In this document: positions 1 to 4,921 of the stretch, in pieces
Layout: every line of letters starts with the position of its first letter
Position numbering within the stretch: position 1 is the stretch's first letter
Notes under the pieces: model-generated
The model's input: the letters and a program-made list of their open reading frames with translations, nothing else
The model's database searches: none
What the model was told of the DNA's origin: nothing
Assembly: GCA_024762835.1 (NCBI GenBank)
Contig: JANTGP010000014.1
Span: 1-32,083 of the forward strand
Direction of reading: 5' to 3'
Length of the DNA stretch: 32,083 bases
Source: Bacteroidota bacterium
GTDB taxonomy: Bacteria > Bacteroidota > Bacteroidia > Bacteroidales > M50B96
Translations under genes and position numbers: made by a program

Positions 1-2323
1 GGTAGTCAATGCAGCCGTTAATGTCTTTTACACTTAGTTCAATATAATAAGTTCCACTTTCACTGTAGGAATGAAATGTTTCCGGTGATGAATTAGACAT
101 TACGGGCGATAAATCTCCAAAATCCCATTCATATCCACTATAGCACGATGTAAAAACATCTTCAGATGCTCCGGCATCAAACAAAACACCTGTATTTGCA
201 CATAATATGGAATCTACATGAAAATCTGCAAAAATATCGCGAACATAAACTTTCATACTATCTGCTAAAACACAGCCTGTTGTAAAATTAAACATTTCGA
301 GAATTACTACATAATCACCGGTGTCCGCATAGGTATGAAAAGGATTAATTACATTTCCTGTATCAATAAAAGTACTGTCGCCAAAGTCCCAGAATATTGA
401 ATCAGTATCAATGGCATTTGAATGGAATAAAAAGCCATGAGGCTCTGAACATATAAAATCGTACGAAATATGGCCTAATGGTGATTGAACATCAATAAGG
501 GGATTTGTAACAGAGTATATATTAAGAACACCATTATAATAATAATGAAAGAGTATATCTATTATTCCTGTATCTGTTGCAAAAGTATAAACAGAAGGGT
601 GATTTTCCGTACATCCTGTAAAACCTGTGTACATCGCATTATAATATGTGTAATAATCAGGCGGTGAACCTGAACATTCGGGGAAGCATGCACAAACATC
701 TAAAACTATCGTATCTCCTGGAGGAGGAGGAGAACAGTAATTAACAGTGATAGTTATAGGATATGAAATATCACTACAGCCTAAGTCATCGGTAATGGTA
801 AGGTAAACATCATAAATGCCCGGAACTAAAAATGTGTGAACTGCTGAATCAACATAGGTTGTTGTACTTGTACTGTCGCCAAAATCCCAGTACCATGATA
901 TAATGTTTCCGGGTGAGTATGATGAATCGCTAAAAGTAACAGTTAGTGGTGCACATCCGTTATTAACATTAGGCATAAACATGGCAACAGGCATGTCAAG
1001 CACAATTGAATCGCCGGGTTCATAATAGTGGTAGCAGCCGTGAGAGCTATAGGCTATGAGGCTTGGGTAAAATACCTGAAGTTCAGGCATATCGTATAGG
1101 CCTGTGTCCTGATTATGGTATAAATGCAAAGGATTCTGGTTGTTGCTTTCTGTACCGTCACCAAATATATACTGCCAACTTACTGCATTTGTTGATGAAT
1201 CGGTAAATTGAATTGACACAGGACTACTACAACTGTACTCGGTATCAAAAGTAAAATTTGAGATAACTTCTTCAACTGTTATCGGTATTGTTGTATCAAC
1301 ATCACATGGCCCAACATTGCAACTCAAATGTACGTAGTAAACCCCCGGATTGGTATAAAGGTGAATTGAATCAAATCCACTTGTTCCATCGCCGTAATTC
1401 CAATAACTGTTCTCATTCCCACACGAAGAATTAAACTTTGCAATATTACAGATAGTGTAATCTACGCTATTGTATAAATCAAAACTTATATCAGGATCGA
1501 TAACATTAATTGTGTAATAAGAATATGCACTGCATCCAAATTCATCAGAAACTGTAAGTGTAATTGTGTAGGTGCCCGGGTAAAATTCCACTTGGTTATT
1601 CATTAATTGCGATGAAGAGCCATTATCAAAATCCCAGGAATAAAAAATTGAATTACTGATTGAAGATGTTGATACCGCATTAGCATCAAAGCTAATTGTC
1701 ATTGGTGTATCACAATTGGTTAAAGTATTAAAATTAGACAAGATACTGGCAGTTGGAGCACTTGACAGGGTTAATAATGAACTAAGTAAAATAAAATCGG
1801 AACATCCATTATTGTCTGTAACCTCAAGCGATACATCATAAATGCCTGAATAATTATAAGTATGAGATATGTTACCTGATGTAGTGGTTTGCATATTACC
1901 ATCGCCATAAGTCCAAATCCACTCAACAATATTTGACGAACTAGCCGAAGTTGAATTGTCTTGGAAATTAGCTTGAAATGGTACACATCCTGTATTCTGA
2001 GAGATTAAGTCGAAACCTGCTGTAGGACTGTCATAAACATTGATTATGGTTGTTTGGCTAACAGGATTACCCGATAGCATTGCGGAAAAAACAACGGTAT
2101 AGGTTCCCGGATTAGGGTATGTGTGATTTGATGTTGGATTGATAGAACTTGATCCGTCGCCAAAATCCCAGTTAATATTCGTGTAAGCACTGTTTGTTGT
2201 TGTAAAACTAACGTTTATTAATGGTGCACATCCAGAAGTTGGTGAGATATTGCTTTGTGAAATGGCATAATTTATATTTCCCAAGAGAAATATTATTAAT
2301 AAATTTAGGTATTTATCTGCCAT
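1..2323 (-). CDS. PKD-repeat secreted protein, C-terminal part beyond window
   Basis: I translated this frame by hand from the ATG at 2323-2321 to the window edge and found no stop, so 774 N-terminal residues are visible. Residues 1-23 form a signal peptide (hydrophobic LLIIFLLG core, then AISQ). The rest is a chain of PKD-type modules, recognised by W/Y-x-F/Y-G-D-G/S signatures near residues 52-57, 137-142, 230-235, 308-313, 383-390, 478-484, 645-650 and 733-737. Each is followed by a G-x-Y-x-V/I-x-L-x-V strand, and many contain a GC or NGCS cysteine motif. Residues about 530-630 break the pattern: a Pro run, then a cysteine-rich stretch. PKD modules are Ig-like folds common in Bacteroidota surface proteins, where they often precede a C-terminal type IX sorting domain; that end is not visible here. 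Adhesion or substrate binding is inference. It is transcribed divergently from the M43-like gene. Confidence 0.93.
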   Translation of the reverse strand, partial: MADKYLNLLIIFLLGNINYAISQSNISPTSGCAPLINVSFTTTNSAYTNINWDFGDGSSSINPTSNHTYPNPGTYTVVFSAMLSGNPVSQTTIINVYDSPTAGFDLISQNTGCVPFQANFQDNSTSASSSNIVEWIWTYGDGNMQTTTSGNISHTYNYSGIYDVSLEVTDNNGCSDFILLSSLLTLSSAPTASILSNFNTLTNCDTPMTISFDANAVSTSSISNSIFYSWDFDNGSSSQLMNNQVEFYPGTYTITLTVSDEFGCSAYSYYTINVIDPDISFDLYNSVDYTICNIAKFNSSCGNENSYWNYGDGTSGFDSIHLYTNPGVYYVHLSCNVGPCDVDTTIPITVEEVISNFTFDTEYSCSSPVSIQFTDSSTNAVSWQYIFGDGTESNNQNPLHLYHNQDTGLYDMPELQVFYPSLIAYSSHGCYHYYEPGDSIVLDMPVAMFMPNVNNGCAPLTVTFSDSSYSPGNIISWYWDFGDSTSTTTYVDSAVHTFLVPGIYDVYLTITDDLGCSDISYPITITVNYCSPPPPGDTIVLDVCACFPECSGSPPDYYTYYNAMYTGFTGCTENHPSVYTFATDTGIIDILFHYYYNGVLNIYSVTNPLIDVQSPLGHISYDFICSEPHGFLFHSNAIDTDSIFWDFGDSTFIDTGNVINPFHTYADTGDYVVILEMFNFTTGCVLADSMKVYVRDIFADFHVDSILCANTGVLFDAGASEDVFTSCYSGYEWDFGDLSPVMSNSSPETFHSYSESGTYYIELSVKDINGCIDY

Positions 2324-2328
2324 TTTAT

Positions 2329-2336
2329 TATTTTTG
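2329..2336 (+). promoter_or_regulatory. candidate -7 box for the M43-like gene
   Basis: TATTTTTG matches the TAnnTTTG -7 consensus on the plus strand. A TTTA at 2304-2307 lies 21 bases upstream as an imperfect -33 element. The predicted leader is about 60 bases, so it would overlap the leader of the divergent PKD gene in antisense. Confidence 0.38.
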
Positions 2337-2355
2337 AGTAATTAATTTAATAGTT

Positions 2356-2387
2356 AGACAACTTTTTGAGAATAACGTTGTCTCAAA
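2356..2387. repeat. two mutually exclusive inverted repeats between divergent genes
   Basis: AGACAAC (2356-2362) pairs with GTTGTCT (2377-2383). TTTGAGA (2365-2371) pairs with TCTCAAA (2381-2387). The two stems share bases 2381-2383, so only one can form at a time. Both lie between the two candidate -7 boxes and could be an operator or an RNA switch in the overlapping leaders; function is inference. Confidence 0.45.
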
Positions 2388-2391
2388 TATA
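2384..2391 (-). promoter_or_regulatory. candidate -7 box for the PKD gene
   Basis: On the minus strand this reads TATATTTG, a perfect match to the Bacteroidota -7 consensus TAnnTTTG. It would give a leader of roughly 55 bases before the ATG at 2323. I see no clear TTTG at the -33 position, which would fall inside the start of the divergent gene. Confidence 0.4.
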
Positions 2392-2402
2392 AAGACTTTT
2401 CT

Positions 2403-3236
2403 ATGAAAATGAAAATAAATTATATTATTGCTCTTCTTTTAGGACTTTTTGTTTCTTATCAGAGCTATTCTCAAAATTTTATTCAATGCTTTGTTGAGGC
2501 AGGTCCTGCACAGATTCAATTTGAAGCTAATAATCCTCAAATGTATTCAACTCAAAGCCTGAGTCCCAGTCAGCGGGTTCTTGCTATTCATTTGCATCTT
2601 GTTGCTAACAGTTTGTATAATTATTATCCTGATACTGCCGGTGTACAGGCGGCATTGCTTAAATTGAATGAAGCTTTTGAACGTTCGGGTATAAGCTTCA
2701 GATATTGCAAAATTGATTCAATAGAGAATTATAAATACAATGATTTTTCAATTGATAACGAAATAGAGGAAGTTAAAACTCTTTATTATAAGGCAGGTGT
2801 TATAAATGTTTTTGTTGTTGGAGAGATTCGTAAGACTGGAATTTATTCGAGAATAGAAGGATATACATTCTTTCCGGGAGGCGATGATATTATTGTTATT
2901 ACAAAACTTGATTTTACATCAAATGGTTTAGCTCATCAAATGGGGCATTTTTTCGGGCTTTATAACACTTACGAAAACGGATTTGGCTTAGAGATGATTG
3001 ATGGAAGTAATTGTAATACTGCAGGCGATTTGATTTGTGATACACCAGCTGATATTTCTGTTGGAATGTTAGGTAGTTATCCTGCCTCAACATTAACAGA
3101 TACAAGTGGTAATAAATATCATCATCCTTTTAATAATATGATGTCGGGTAATAGGTTTAGCAGATGTGTTTTTTCAATTGCCCAAATGAATAAAATGGCT
3201 TACATTTTAGAAAACTACCGATCATATCTAAAGTGA
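2403..3236 (+). CDS. secreted M43 (pappalysin)-like protein with inactivated zinc site
   Basis: The 277-residue product begins with a signal peptide (MKMKINYIIALLLGLFVSY then QSYSQ). Its C-terminal half has the layout of Bacteroidota M43 metalloproteases: the helix AHQMGHFFGLYN at residues 177-188, the downstream NCNTAGDLICDTPAD block, a Met-turn-like NNMMSG and a closing FSIAQMNKM segment. The family zinc motif is HExxHxxGxxH. Here His178, His182 and Gly185 are kept, but the catalytic Glu is Gln179 and the third zinc ligand is Asn188, read directly from CAT CAA ... TAT AAC. The fold is therefore probably kept while proteolysis is probably lost, suggesting a binding or scaffolding role. The frame is intact, so this is not an ordinary decayed gene. 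Start: ATG 2403, with an in-frame ATG at 2409 as an alternative; no Shine-Dalgarno sequence is visible. Confidence 0.88.
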   Translation: MKMKINYIIALLLGLFVSYQSYSQNFIQCFVEAGPAQIQFEANNPQMYSTQSLSPSQRVLAIHLHLVANSLYNYYPDTAGVQAALLKLNEAFERSGISFRYCKIDSIENYKYNDFSIDNEIEEVKTLYYKAGVINVFVVGEIRKTGIYSRIEGYTFFPGGDDIIVITKLDFTSNGLAHQMGHFFGLYNTYENGFGLEMIDGSNCNTAGDLICDTPADISVGMLGSYPASTLTDTSGNKYHHPFNNMMSGNRFSRCVFSIAQMNKMAYILENYRSYLK

Positions 3237-3300: not shown

Positions 3301-4419
3301 TTATTGATGTCTTTTGTAGGGTTTTTCAAAACTTAGCAAGCTTGAGCTAAAAGCAAGTGTGACAGGCTCTCCCGATTTGTTATATTTCTTTTCTAATTTC
3401 ATACTGCTACCGGTAATCTTGTTAAGTCCGTTAAGTCCGGCATCGGCAATATCCCAAAAACTTACTCTGTCAGGGTCAATGTTTGTCGATTTTTCCTTTA
3501 ATATTTTTTCTTTAAACAAAATAGTTGCAAGCTGTTTGGGTGTAAGGTAAGAGTCATTAATATCCGGTTTTGCATAATTTTTTATCATAGGACTCATTTG
3601 TCTGACTATCGAAATATTGTTTTCAATTTTGCGAGAAGAAACTCTAATATTTGCCTCTTTTTTAGCCATCAATTCTAAACTTGCCAACTGTTCCCTATTA
3701 ATATTTCCCGATAAACCTGTTTGTATCGCTTTATGCTGAATATTTTGATGTTTTTTTGTGGGGTTTATGTTTTTTCCAGTAGGTATTATTTGTTTAGTTA
3801 CTGTTGCAAACCGATGTGAATTATTATCCGATACTTCTGATTTGTTGCTTTTAATGATTTTTGAGTCAGTAGAACGAACTGAATATTGCCTTTTTTCACG
3901 AATAAAATATCTTGATGAGAAAAAGAATATAGATAATAACAATATAATACTTGCTGCCGCTGAAATTAAAGAGTAAGCTGTTTTTTGATTAATCCCCAAT
4001 AATAAATGCCGCTTTAATGATGATTTATTAGTAAAAGTAATATCTAAGTCGGCTTGTAATCTGGTTTTTAAAAACTGTAAATATTCTTTTTTACCTAAAG
4101 GATGAGTTTCTAAATAGCTATCAAAATTTTCACTTTCTTCTCTTGAAAGTTCATCTTCCATTCTGGCAACTGCTGTTTCGTTAAAGCTTAAATCGCCGAA
4201 TGCCGAGATAGATTCTTTTAGTTCTTCTTTCGATTCAAACTTAATATTCTCAGCTTTTAGAGAAATGTCAAAGTCTTTTATTTCATCAAGCTCGGCTTTA
4301 AGGTCGGGATTATCAATCAAGAATTTTTGGAACTCTAACTGACAGGCAATATCAAGTTCACCTTCCAGATAATCTAAAAAGTAAGCCTCGTAATTTTCTC
4401 TTGTGATTTGCTTATTCAT
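3301..4419 (-). CDS. membrane anti-sigma factor partner of the ECF sigma factor
   Basis: This 372-residue protein starts 16 bases after the ECF sigma gene and is surely co-transcribed with it. The N-terminal cytoplasmic part carries two similar acidic helical modules: residues 13-40 (YFLDYLEGELD...FLIDNPDL) and 86-113 (RMEDELSREES...YLETHPLGKKEY). Both follow the pattern E-x-EL then F-x-x-(F/Y)L-x-x-x-P, typical of anti-sigma domains in Bacteroidota; neither shows the zinc-binding HxxxCxxC motif. One membrane segment lies at about residues 148-168, followed by roughly 200 periplasmic residues that are Lys/Asn/Ser-rich, with an ordered-looking end (WDIADAGLNGLNKITGSSM and then beta-type sequence). 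It probably binds the sigma factor in the cytoplasm and senses envelope state outside. No FecR domain is evident, so this is not a clear TonB-receptor pair. Confidence 0.78.
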   Translation of the reverse strand: MNKQITRENYEAYFLDYLEGELDIACQLEFQKFLIDNPDLKAELDEIKDFDISLKAENIKFESKEELKESISAFGDLSFNETAVARMEDELSREESENFDSYLETHPLGKKEYLQFLKTRLQADLDITFTNKSSLKRHLLLGINQKTAYSLISAAASIILLLSIFFFSSRYFIREKRQYSVRSTDSKIIKSNKSEVSDNNSHRFATVTKQIIPTGKNINPTKKHQNIQHKAIQTGLSGNINREQLASLELMAKKEANIRVSSRKIENNISIVRQMSPMIKNYAKPDINDSYLTPKQLATILFKEKILKEKSTNIDPDRVSFWDIADAGLNGLNKITGSSMKLEKKYNKSGEPVTLAFSSSLLSFEKPYKRHQ

Positions 4420-4435
4420 TATTATTCCTTGTTCT

Positions 4436-4921
4436 TTAAACTACTGCTTCGATACTACCGATATAATTCTTTAAAAATATTCTTGCTCTAAAAATATAAA
4501 CTTTAACCTGAGATTCGTTTAGTCCTGTTATGTCCGATATTTCTTTATAAGAATAACCTTCGTAATCACGCAACATTATCACAGAGCGTTGTTTCTCATT
4601 CAATCTCATTATAGCCTCATTTAATAATTCACTTAAATCGCTGTATTGCTCATCATGCGAATAATCTATTTTCTTGACATTATCAAAGTCGAGCTTTCTT
4701 TTTTCTTTTCTAATTATATCTATCATTCTATGATAAGCTGTTGAGTATAAATATGACTTTGTTTTTTCAAAATCTATTTTATCAACGTTTATCCATAACT
4801 TCTCAAAAGAATCCTGAATAATATCACGAGCCTTTTCCTCATCTCTGATATTCTTAAGAATAAAGCGATATACTCCGTCAGAGTATTTATCAACGCATAT
4901 GTTAAATTCCTTTCTTGTCAT
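4436..4921 (-). CDS. ECF-type RNA polymerase sigma factor
   Basis: The 161-residue length is typical for extracytoplasmic-function sigma factors. Region 2 spans about residues 6-75, with the RDIIQDSFEKLW motif (32-43) used for core binding and the YHRMIDIIRKEKRK segment (63-76) used for -10 recognition. Region 4 spans about 98-151, with the helix-turn-helix GYSYKEISDITGLNESQVK (122-140). Region 3 is absent, as expected. It is first in a two-gene operon with its likely anti-sigma factor. I see no standard TAnnTTTG box on the minus strand in the 192-base upstream gap, which would be compatible with autoregulation from an ECF-specific promoter (inference). Target genes cannot be told from the sequence. 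Confidence 0.93.
   Translation of the reverse strand: MTRKEFNICVDKYSDGVYRFILKNIRDEEKARDIIQDSFEKLWINVDKIDFEKTKSYLYSTAYHRMIDIIRKEKRKLDFDNVKKIDYSHDEQYSDLSELLNEAIMRLNEKQRSVIMLRDYEGYSYKEISDITGLNESQVKVYIFRARIFLKNYIGSIEAVV

Follow-up and report, generated by a model that had tools for sequence, protein, structure and literature searches.

The lower pappalysins of MEROPS family M43, such as ulilysin, mirolysin, and cytophagalysin, carry the zinc-site motif HExxHxxGxxH, and in ulilysin and mirolysin the tyrosine located two residues past the Met-turn methionine has been described as a "tyrosine switch" (PMC11674741). Both enzymes also have a cysteine switch (Cys23) (PMC8259862, PMC11674741). Replacement of Glu by Gln in PAPP-A (E483Q) was reported to yield a proteolytically dead protein, with cleavage of IGFBP-5 abolished (PMC6498606). 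Additionally, inactive ADAM metzincins (ADAM2, 7, 11, 22, 23, and others) keep the metzincin fold and the Met-turn, have substitutions at catalytic or zinc residues, and are retained for protein-protein interaction (PMC11266112). That review mentions neither M43 nor the pappalysins, and the literature on M43 and pseudopeptidases yielded no report of a pappalysin that is naturally inactive.

The type B surface complexes of Bacteroidota provide the second point of comparison. In P. gingivalis (PG1035-PorP-PorE) and F. johnsoniae (Fjoh_3952-3950), genes for a type B CTD protein, PorP/SprF, and PorE follow each other in this order; PorP/SprF proteins are the cognate shuttles of type B substrates, and PorE has been proposed as the cell-wall link of type B complexes (PMC9143113, PMC12618676). 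The window organism has the corresponding genes, its type B protein being a PKD protein, probably in the same order. The searched parts of the text of these two papers contained no description of a fourth, M43-like gene, and a literature search on M43 and SprF gave one fish-pathogen genome paper.

The window analyzed in this study, a stretch of 32,083 nucleotides from a Bacteroidota contig, contains a gene at 2403..3236 (+) for a putative pseudoprotease with the M43 (lower-pappalysin) fold. The frame runs unbroken from ATG to stop and encodes 277 aa plus stop, and the product matched PF05572 (Peptidase_M43, Pfam) at 24.2 bits, just over the cut-off of 23. The N-terminus is hydrophobic and ends in SYSQ, and the structure model has a predicted helix at residues 5-19 with low pLDDT at 20-25; a Sec signal peptide is predicted for residues 1-23 (2403..2471, +), with probable cleavage before Q24. 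A pro-segment-like region follows (residues 24-53; 2472..2561, +), as judged from the structural alignment of residues 24-277 to proulilysin 18-321, and Cys29 is located close to where mirolysin and ulilysin have their cysteine-switch Cys23. Among intact relatives, L049, L051, and L052 have Cys-Gly right behind the signal peptide (QMSCG, QCG, and QTKCG), which resembles the mirolysin cysteine-switch QRTCG; the window clade has kept the Cys and not the Gly.

Searches with the NCBIfam T9SS domains detected no C-terminal sorting domain of type A or type B on the window protein, and no T9SS sorting domain on any of the 55 family rows tested. The initial annotation had described the protein as secreted; Sec export is the more fitting term, as there is no T9SS C-terminal domain, and a periplasmic or outer-membrane location without a T9SS tail seems probable. 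Convergent to the M43-like gene, the window also carries genes for an ECF sigma factor, at 4436-4921, and for a probable anti-sigma protein, at 3301-4419; this pair (3301-4921, -) is not conserved next to relatives of the gene.

Residues 178-188 of the window protein read HQMGHFFGLYN (H178-Q179-M-G-H182-F-F-G185-L-Y-N188; 2934..2966, +), with the codons CAT for H178, CAA for Q179, and AAC for N188. Gln179 thus stands in place of the general base Glu and Asn188 in place of the third His of HExxHxxGxxH. In addition, the Met-turn N245-M-M247-S-G249 (3135..3149, +) has Gly249 at the switch-tyrosine position. The ORF and codons confirmed the motif and the intact frame given in the initial annotation; its description of a doubly mutated site holds for Gln179 and Asn188, but the defect is triple. 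Both sequence hallmarks of an active M43 enzyme, HExxHxxGxxH and Met followed by the switch Tyr, are missing. The substitution in PAPP-A E483Q is the identical change at the general base, although it was engineered and the remaining zinc-site residues were unaltered. Because three catalytic residues differ and PAPP-A E483Q was reported dead, the window protein is very likely catalytically inactive. Ser253 also replaces a Cys conserved in the family (96% of the Glu-less relatives and 90% of the intact ones have it).

A single-protein sequence search of solved structures gave nothing meaningful (best E 0.28, an unrelated dynein chain). The AlphaFold2 model, built on a 55-row alignment (pLDDT 86.8, pTM 0.84), had PAPP-A, ulilysin, and mirolysin as its most significant Foldseek matches. 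VIA-align superposed it on proulilysin with Z 20.2 over 237 residues at 3.4 Å, on promirolysin with Z 19.6, and on PAPP-A with Z 17-19, and the top 18 structural matches were all pappalysins (Z 17.4-20.2), compared with 13.7 for other metzincins. The model is alignable from residue 24, indicating that the pro-segment is included. The M43-like identity proposed earlier is borne out by both Pfam and the fold. The likeness to the lower pappalysins comprises the whole fold with the pro-segment-like region (Z 19-20), the HxxxHxxG helix frame, the Met-turn Met, and C212/C255 at the pappalysin disulphide positions. However, the window protein differs from these enzymes in having Gln, Asn, and Gly for the base Glu, the third His, and the switch Tyr, in lacking a T9SS C-terminal domain, and in being encoded within a PKD/PorP/PorE module.

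The nearest orthologues, L020 and L003, are 56% (over the aligned domain) and 41% identical to the window protein, respectively, and both have the motif HQ..H..H, with the Met-turns MSS in L020 and MSN in L003. The three proteins form one clade (SH-aLRT 98-99) in which Gln179 and the missing switch Tyr are common to all, and the third His is kept in L003 and L020. Since L020 and L003 also have Gln179 and lack the switch Tyr, the window motif is not an assembly error. Being common to all three, Gln179 and the tyrosine loss probably date back to the ancestor of the clade; Asn188, from its distribution, is a newer change found on the window branch alone. With all three zinc His kept, L003 and L020 may still bind zinc. 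The initial annotation had proposed looking for orthologues that share Gln and Asn; the Gln was recovered in L003 and L020, but these have His where the window branch has Asn. Canonical sister orthologues, put forward earlier as evidence against a pseudoprotease, are absent from the immediate clade; outside it, HExxHxxGxxH/MSY members are common among more distant family members, and the relative from Flavilitoribacter nigricans DSM 23189 (L074), for instance, is intact. Between the window gene and that of L020, pN was 0.30 and pS 0.77, the synonymous sites being saturated, so that dN/dS is used as an inequality only, without a number; the comparison indicates purifying selection on the window gene. 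Gln179 in two sister lineages and this selection support the earlier suggestion of a pseudoprotease kept for another role.

Profile searches across the order and across genome contigs revealed that M43 proteins of ~250-320 aa form a family spread throughout the Bacteroidota, and PF05572 matched 46 of 55 family rows at E<=0.001. Of the 89 module-type proteins in the final set, which includes a few proteins at contig ends with unreadable context and a few non-module M43s of 344-369 aa, 34 had lost the Glu, 19 of these having Gln; members with HE..D (Asp as third ligand) were left out of this inactive count, and the inactive fraction is biased because the search profiles included inactive members. 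The switch Tyr was also lost in 33 of the 34 Glu-less proteins and kept in 48 of the 55 with Glu. By contrast, none of the 43 longer M43 relatives had lost the Glu, and in an earlier set the Glu was missing in 27 of 66 module-type proteins versus 0 of 43 longer M43s (P 1.1e-7). All 34 Glu-less members have intact reading frames, with N135, C204, G208, D209, C212, D213, T214, N245, M247, and Q261 conserved in 100% of them, and the fold and disulphide residues are invariant in inactive family members.

The losses were repeated. The best tree, from a quick IQ-TREE run with the motif columns left out, SH-aLRT as the only support measure, and many of the deep branches unresolved, required 13 changes of Glu state, of which 6 are forced by starred (well-supported) branches. 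An independent-pairs test of Glu versus Tyr loss found 4 pairs on starred branches, too few for significance, and the association is therefore given as counts. At the same syntenic place within genus g247, L165 and L169 are intact, L179 and L183 have HQ..N, and L182 has HT..H; likewise, genus g218 includes HE..D, HA..D, and HQ..D members. The Gln and Asn pair also occurs in L114, L179, and L183, with close relatives (L079, L097, and L102) intact, and its presence in both the window and genus g247 (L179, L183) means that it arose at least twice.

Several other motif variants were observed in the family. HExxHxxGxxD, with Asp as the third ligand and with Phe, Leu, or Arg in place of the Met-turn Tyr, was found in L086, L092, L164, L171, L174, L082, and L087; from their motifs, these relatives are possibly active, or intermediates toward inactivation. 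L100 has REL-GR..H, in which the first and second His are replaced by Arg, yet the Glu and Tyr are kept. Genome G262 contains two copies of the PKD/PorP/PorE module (L125 and L127), each with its own Glu-less M43, with the motifs HQ..H..H and TM..H..S.

Neighbourhood clustering identified three recurrent partners beside the M43 family: a PKD-repeat protein that carries a type B C-terminal domain (in most cases about 1,200-1,550 aa long, with a maximum of 2,050), PorP/SprF, and a PorE-like OmpA/PD40/TPR protein. Many of the family loci come from fragmented MAGs; among the 79 family genes with readable context, 72 had a PKD type B protein within 4 genes, and 46 had the PKD gene immediately upstream on the opposite strand. 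The corresponding count was 0 of 24 for longer M43s with context (Fisher P 1.5e-17 against 72/79), and 46 of the 47 family genes away from contig edges had a PKD neighbour. This association was seen in MAGs that carry the labels Bacteroidales, Saprospiraceae, Chitinophagales, and Flavobacteriales, and it is kept in rearranged loci with the same-strand order PKD-PorP-PorE-M43 (L127, L128, and L136). These counts favour the initial guess that the divergent PKD protein is a partner of the M43-like protein, with synteny read as association, not as proof of physical contact.

In the window itself, the divergent PKD-repeat surface protein (PKD_4/PKD match) occupies 1..2323 (-), where 774 aa are encoded before the gene runs off the contig start. 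The 79 bp between the two genes (2324..2402) probably contain divergent promoters, an arrangement likewise found in most relatives. Contig C253 of the same genome (G000) overlaps the left end of the window by 281 bp at 98.2% identity, and the PKD protein continues there with a T9SS type B C-terminal domain (TIGR04131, 58.1 bits). A PorP/SprF gene is located directly downstream (C253 2320-3330; TIGR03519, 133.8 bits), with a product 58% identical to that of L129. The best PorE orthologue, 45% identical to that of L053, is encoded on contig C153 (NF052230, 302.8 bits, below the 600-bit cut-off). At its other end, C253 can be joined to C153 by a 44-bp overlap of 100% identity inside a repeat, in which case PorE would follow PorP/SprF. 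A dispersed repeat of the CAGTCGGCAGTC type separates PorP/SprF from PorE, at L147 (C253 3332-3604) and L155 (C153 7175-7489), and probably caused the assembly break there. SprA is present in the genome, which is 90% complete and in which no second M43 was found. One candidate on C32 (E 0.036) was dismissed, as the match falls within a flippase-like membrane protein.

These observations could be read in other ways. The site might be altered yet live, with zinc coordinated by His178, His182, and Asn188 (or water instead of the latter) and hydrolysis being slow or different, with Gln179 or another base. His178 and His182 are still there, Gln occurs with all three His in L003, L020, L026, L050, and L099, and Glu occurs with an Asp third ligand in L086, L092, and L174, as Asp is the third zinc ligand in snapalysins. 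However, the window protein lacks the Glu, the third His, and the switch Tyr, the same Glu to Gln change ends IGFBP-5 cleavage by PAPP-A (PMC6498606), and in other lineages the site is fully erased (T-M/L..H..S, E-L..I..R, A-G..L..H) while the gene and the module remain; residual catalysis is therefore improbable. The varied substitutions at the Glu site (Q, L, M, V, K, T, A, and G) would be expected without constraint, and Cys253, conserved in the family, is missing from the window copy too, as though protease activity had become dispensable and the gene were drifting to loss. This is unlikely, given the intact frames of the 34 Glu-less members, the spread of inactive clades across many species (a seven-row T..S clade, a six-row clade, and the window clade), the invariant structural residues, and the pN and saturated pS between the window gene and L020.

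Two further possibilities concern the target of the protein. It could regulate an active M43 enzyme in the same cell, a mode known for pseudopeptidases of other families (PMC11266112), but no second M43 was detected in the 90%-complete genome, and both module copies of G262 carry Glu-less members, making such a role very improbable. The M43-like gene might instead have nothing but a promoter region in common with the PKD operon and act on an unrelated target, for example an environmental ligand. Its mostly divergent, separate transcript fits this idea, and synteny by itself is no proof of contact; the association nevertheless spans four MAG labels, survives rearrangement, and is missing from the longer M43s, and we regard mere promoter sharing as rather unlikely.

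The inactivity and the module membership of the window protein are well supported by the sequences, and the repeated loss of catalytic residues within one four-gene cluster suggests that the protein is now kept for binding, not cutting. We consider it probable that it is a Sec-exported pappalysin-fold pseudoprotease acting as a non-catalytic partner of the PKD/PorP/PorE surface complex. It would be the fourth part of a surface module consisting of the PKD type B protein, the PorP/SprF shuttle, and the PorE-like peptidoglycan anchor, to which we infer that it binds. A protein that travels with the module, is exported, has no T9SS tail, and keeps the cleft fold fits best with a periplasmic or outer-membrane partner. 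For intact family members, the target is probably another component of this complex, with the PKD protein or the shuttle as the simplest candidates, and they may trim the PKD protein or the anchor partner. In the window lineage and several others, the general base, at least one zinc ligand, and the switch tyrosine have been lost with the fold staying in place, and such a protein probably holds or escorts its partner, uncut, via the cleft or the surface. The inactive ADAMs would offer a parallel, although these are eukaryotic proteins of family M12 fused to disintegrin and other domains. More tentatively, type B adhesin modules could carry a dedicated pappalysin-fold subunit whose essential role is non-catalytic, with protease activity as an add-on; the catalytic site would then have been discarded repeatedly because the essential role does not require it, and the subunit would bind, perhaps hold or gate, the PKD adhesin at the PorP/PorE anchor.

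Pseudoproteases are well studied in animals and little described in bacteria. Since close intact and inactive pairs occur at one syntenic place, some of them within one genus, this family would allow catalytic and non-catalytic roles to be separated directly. Additionally, the M43-like protein is a candidate fourth component of the type B/PorP/PorE surface-anchor complexes, the composition of which is still being worked out.
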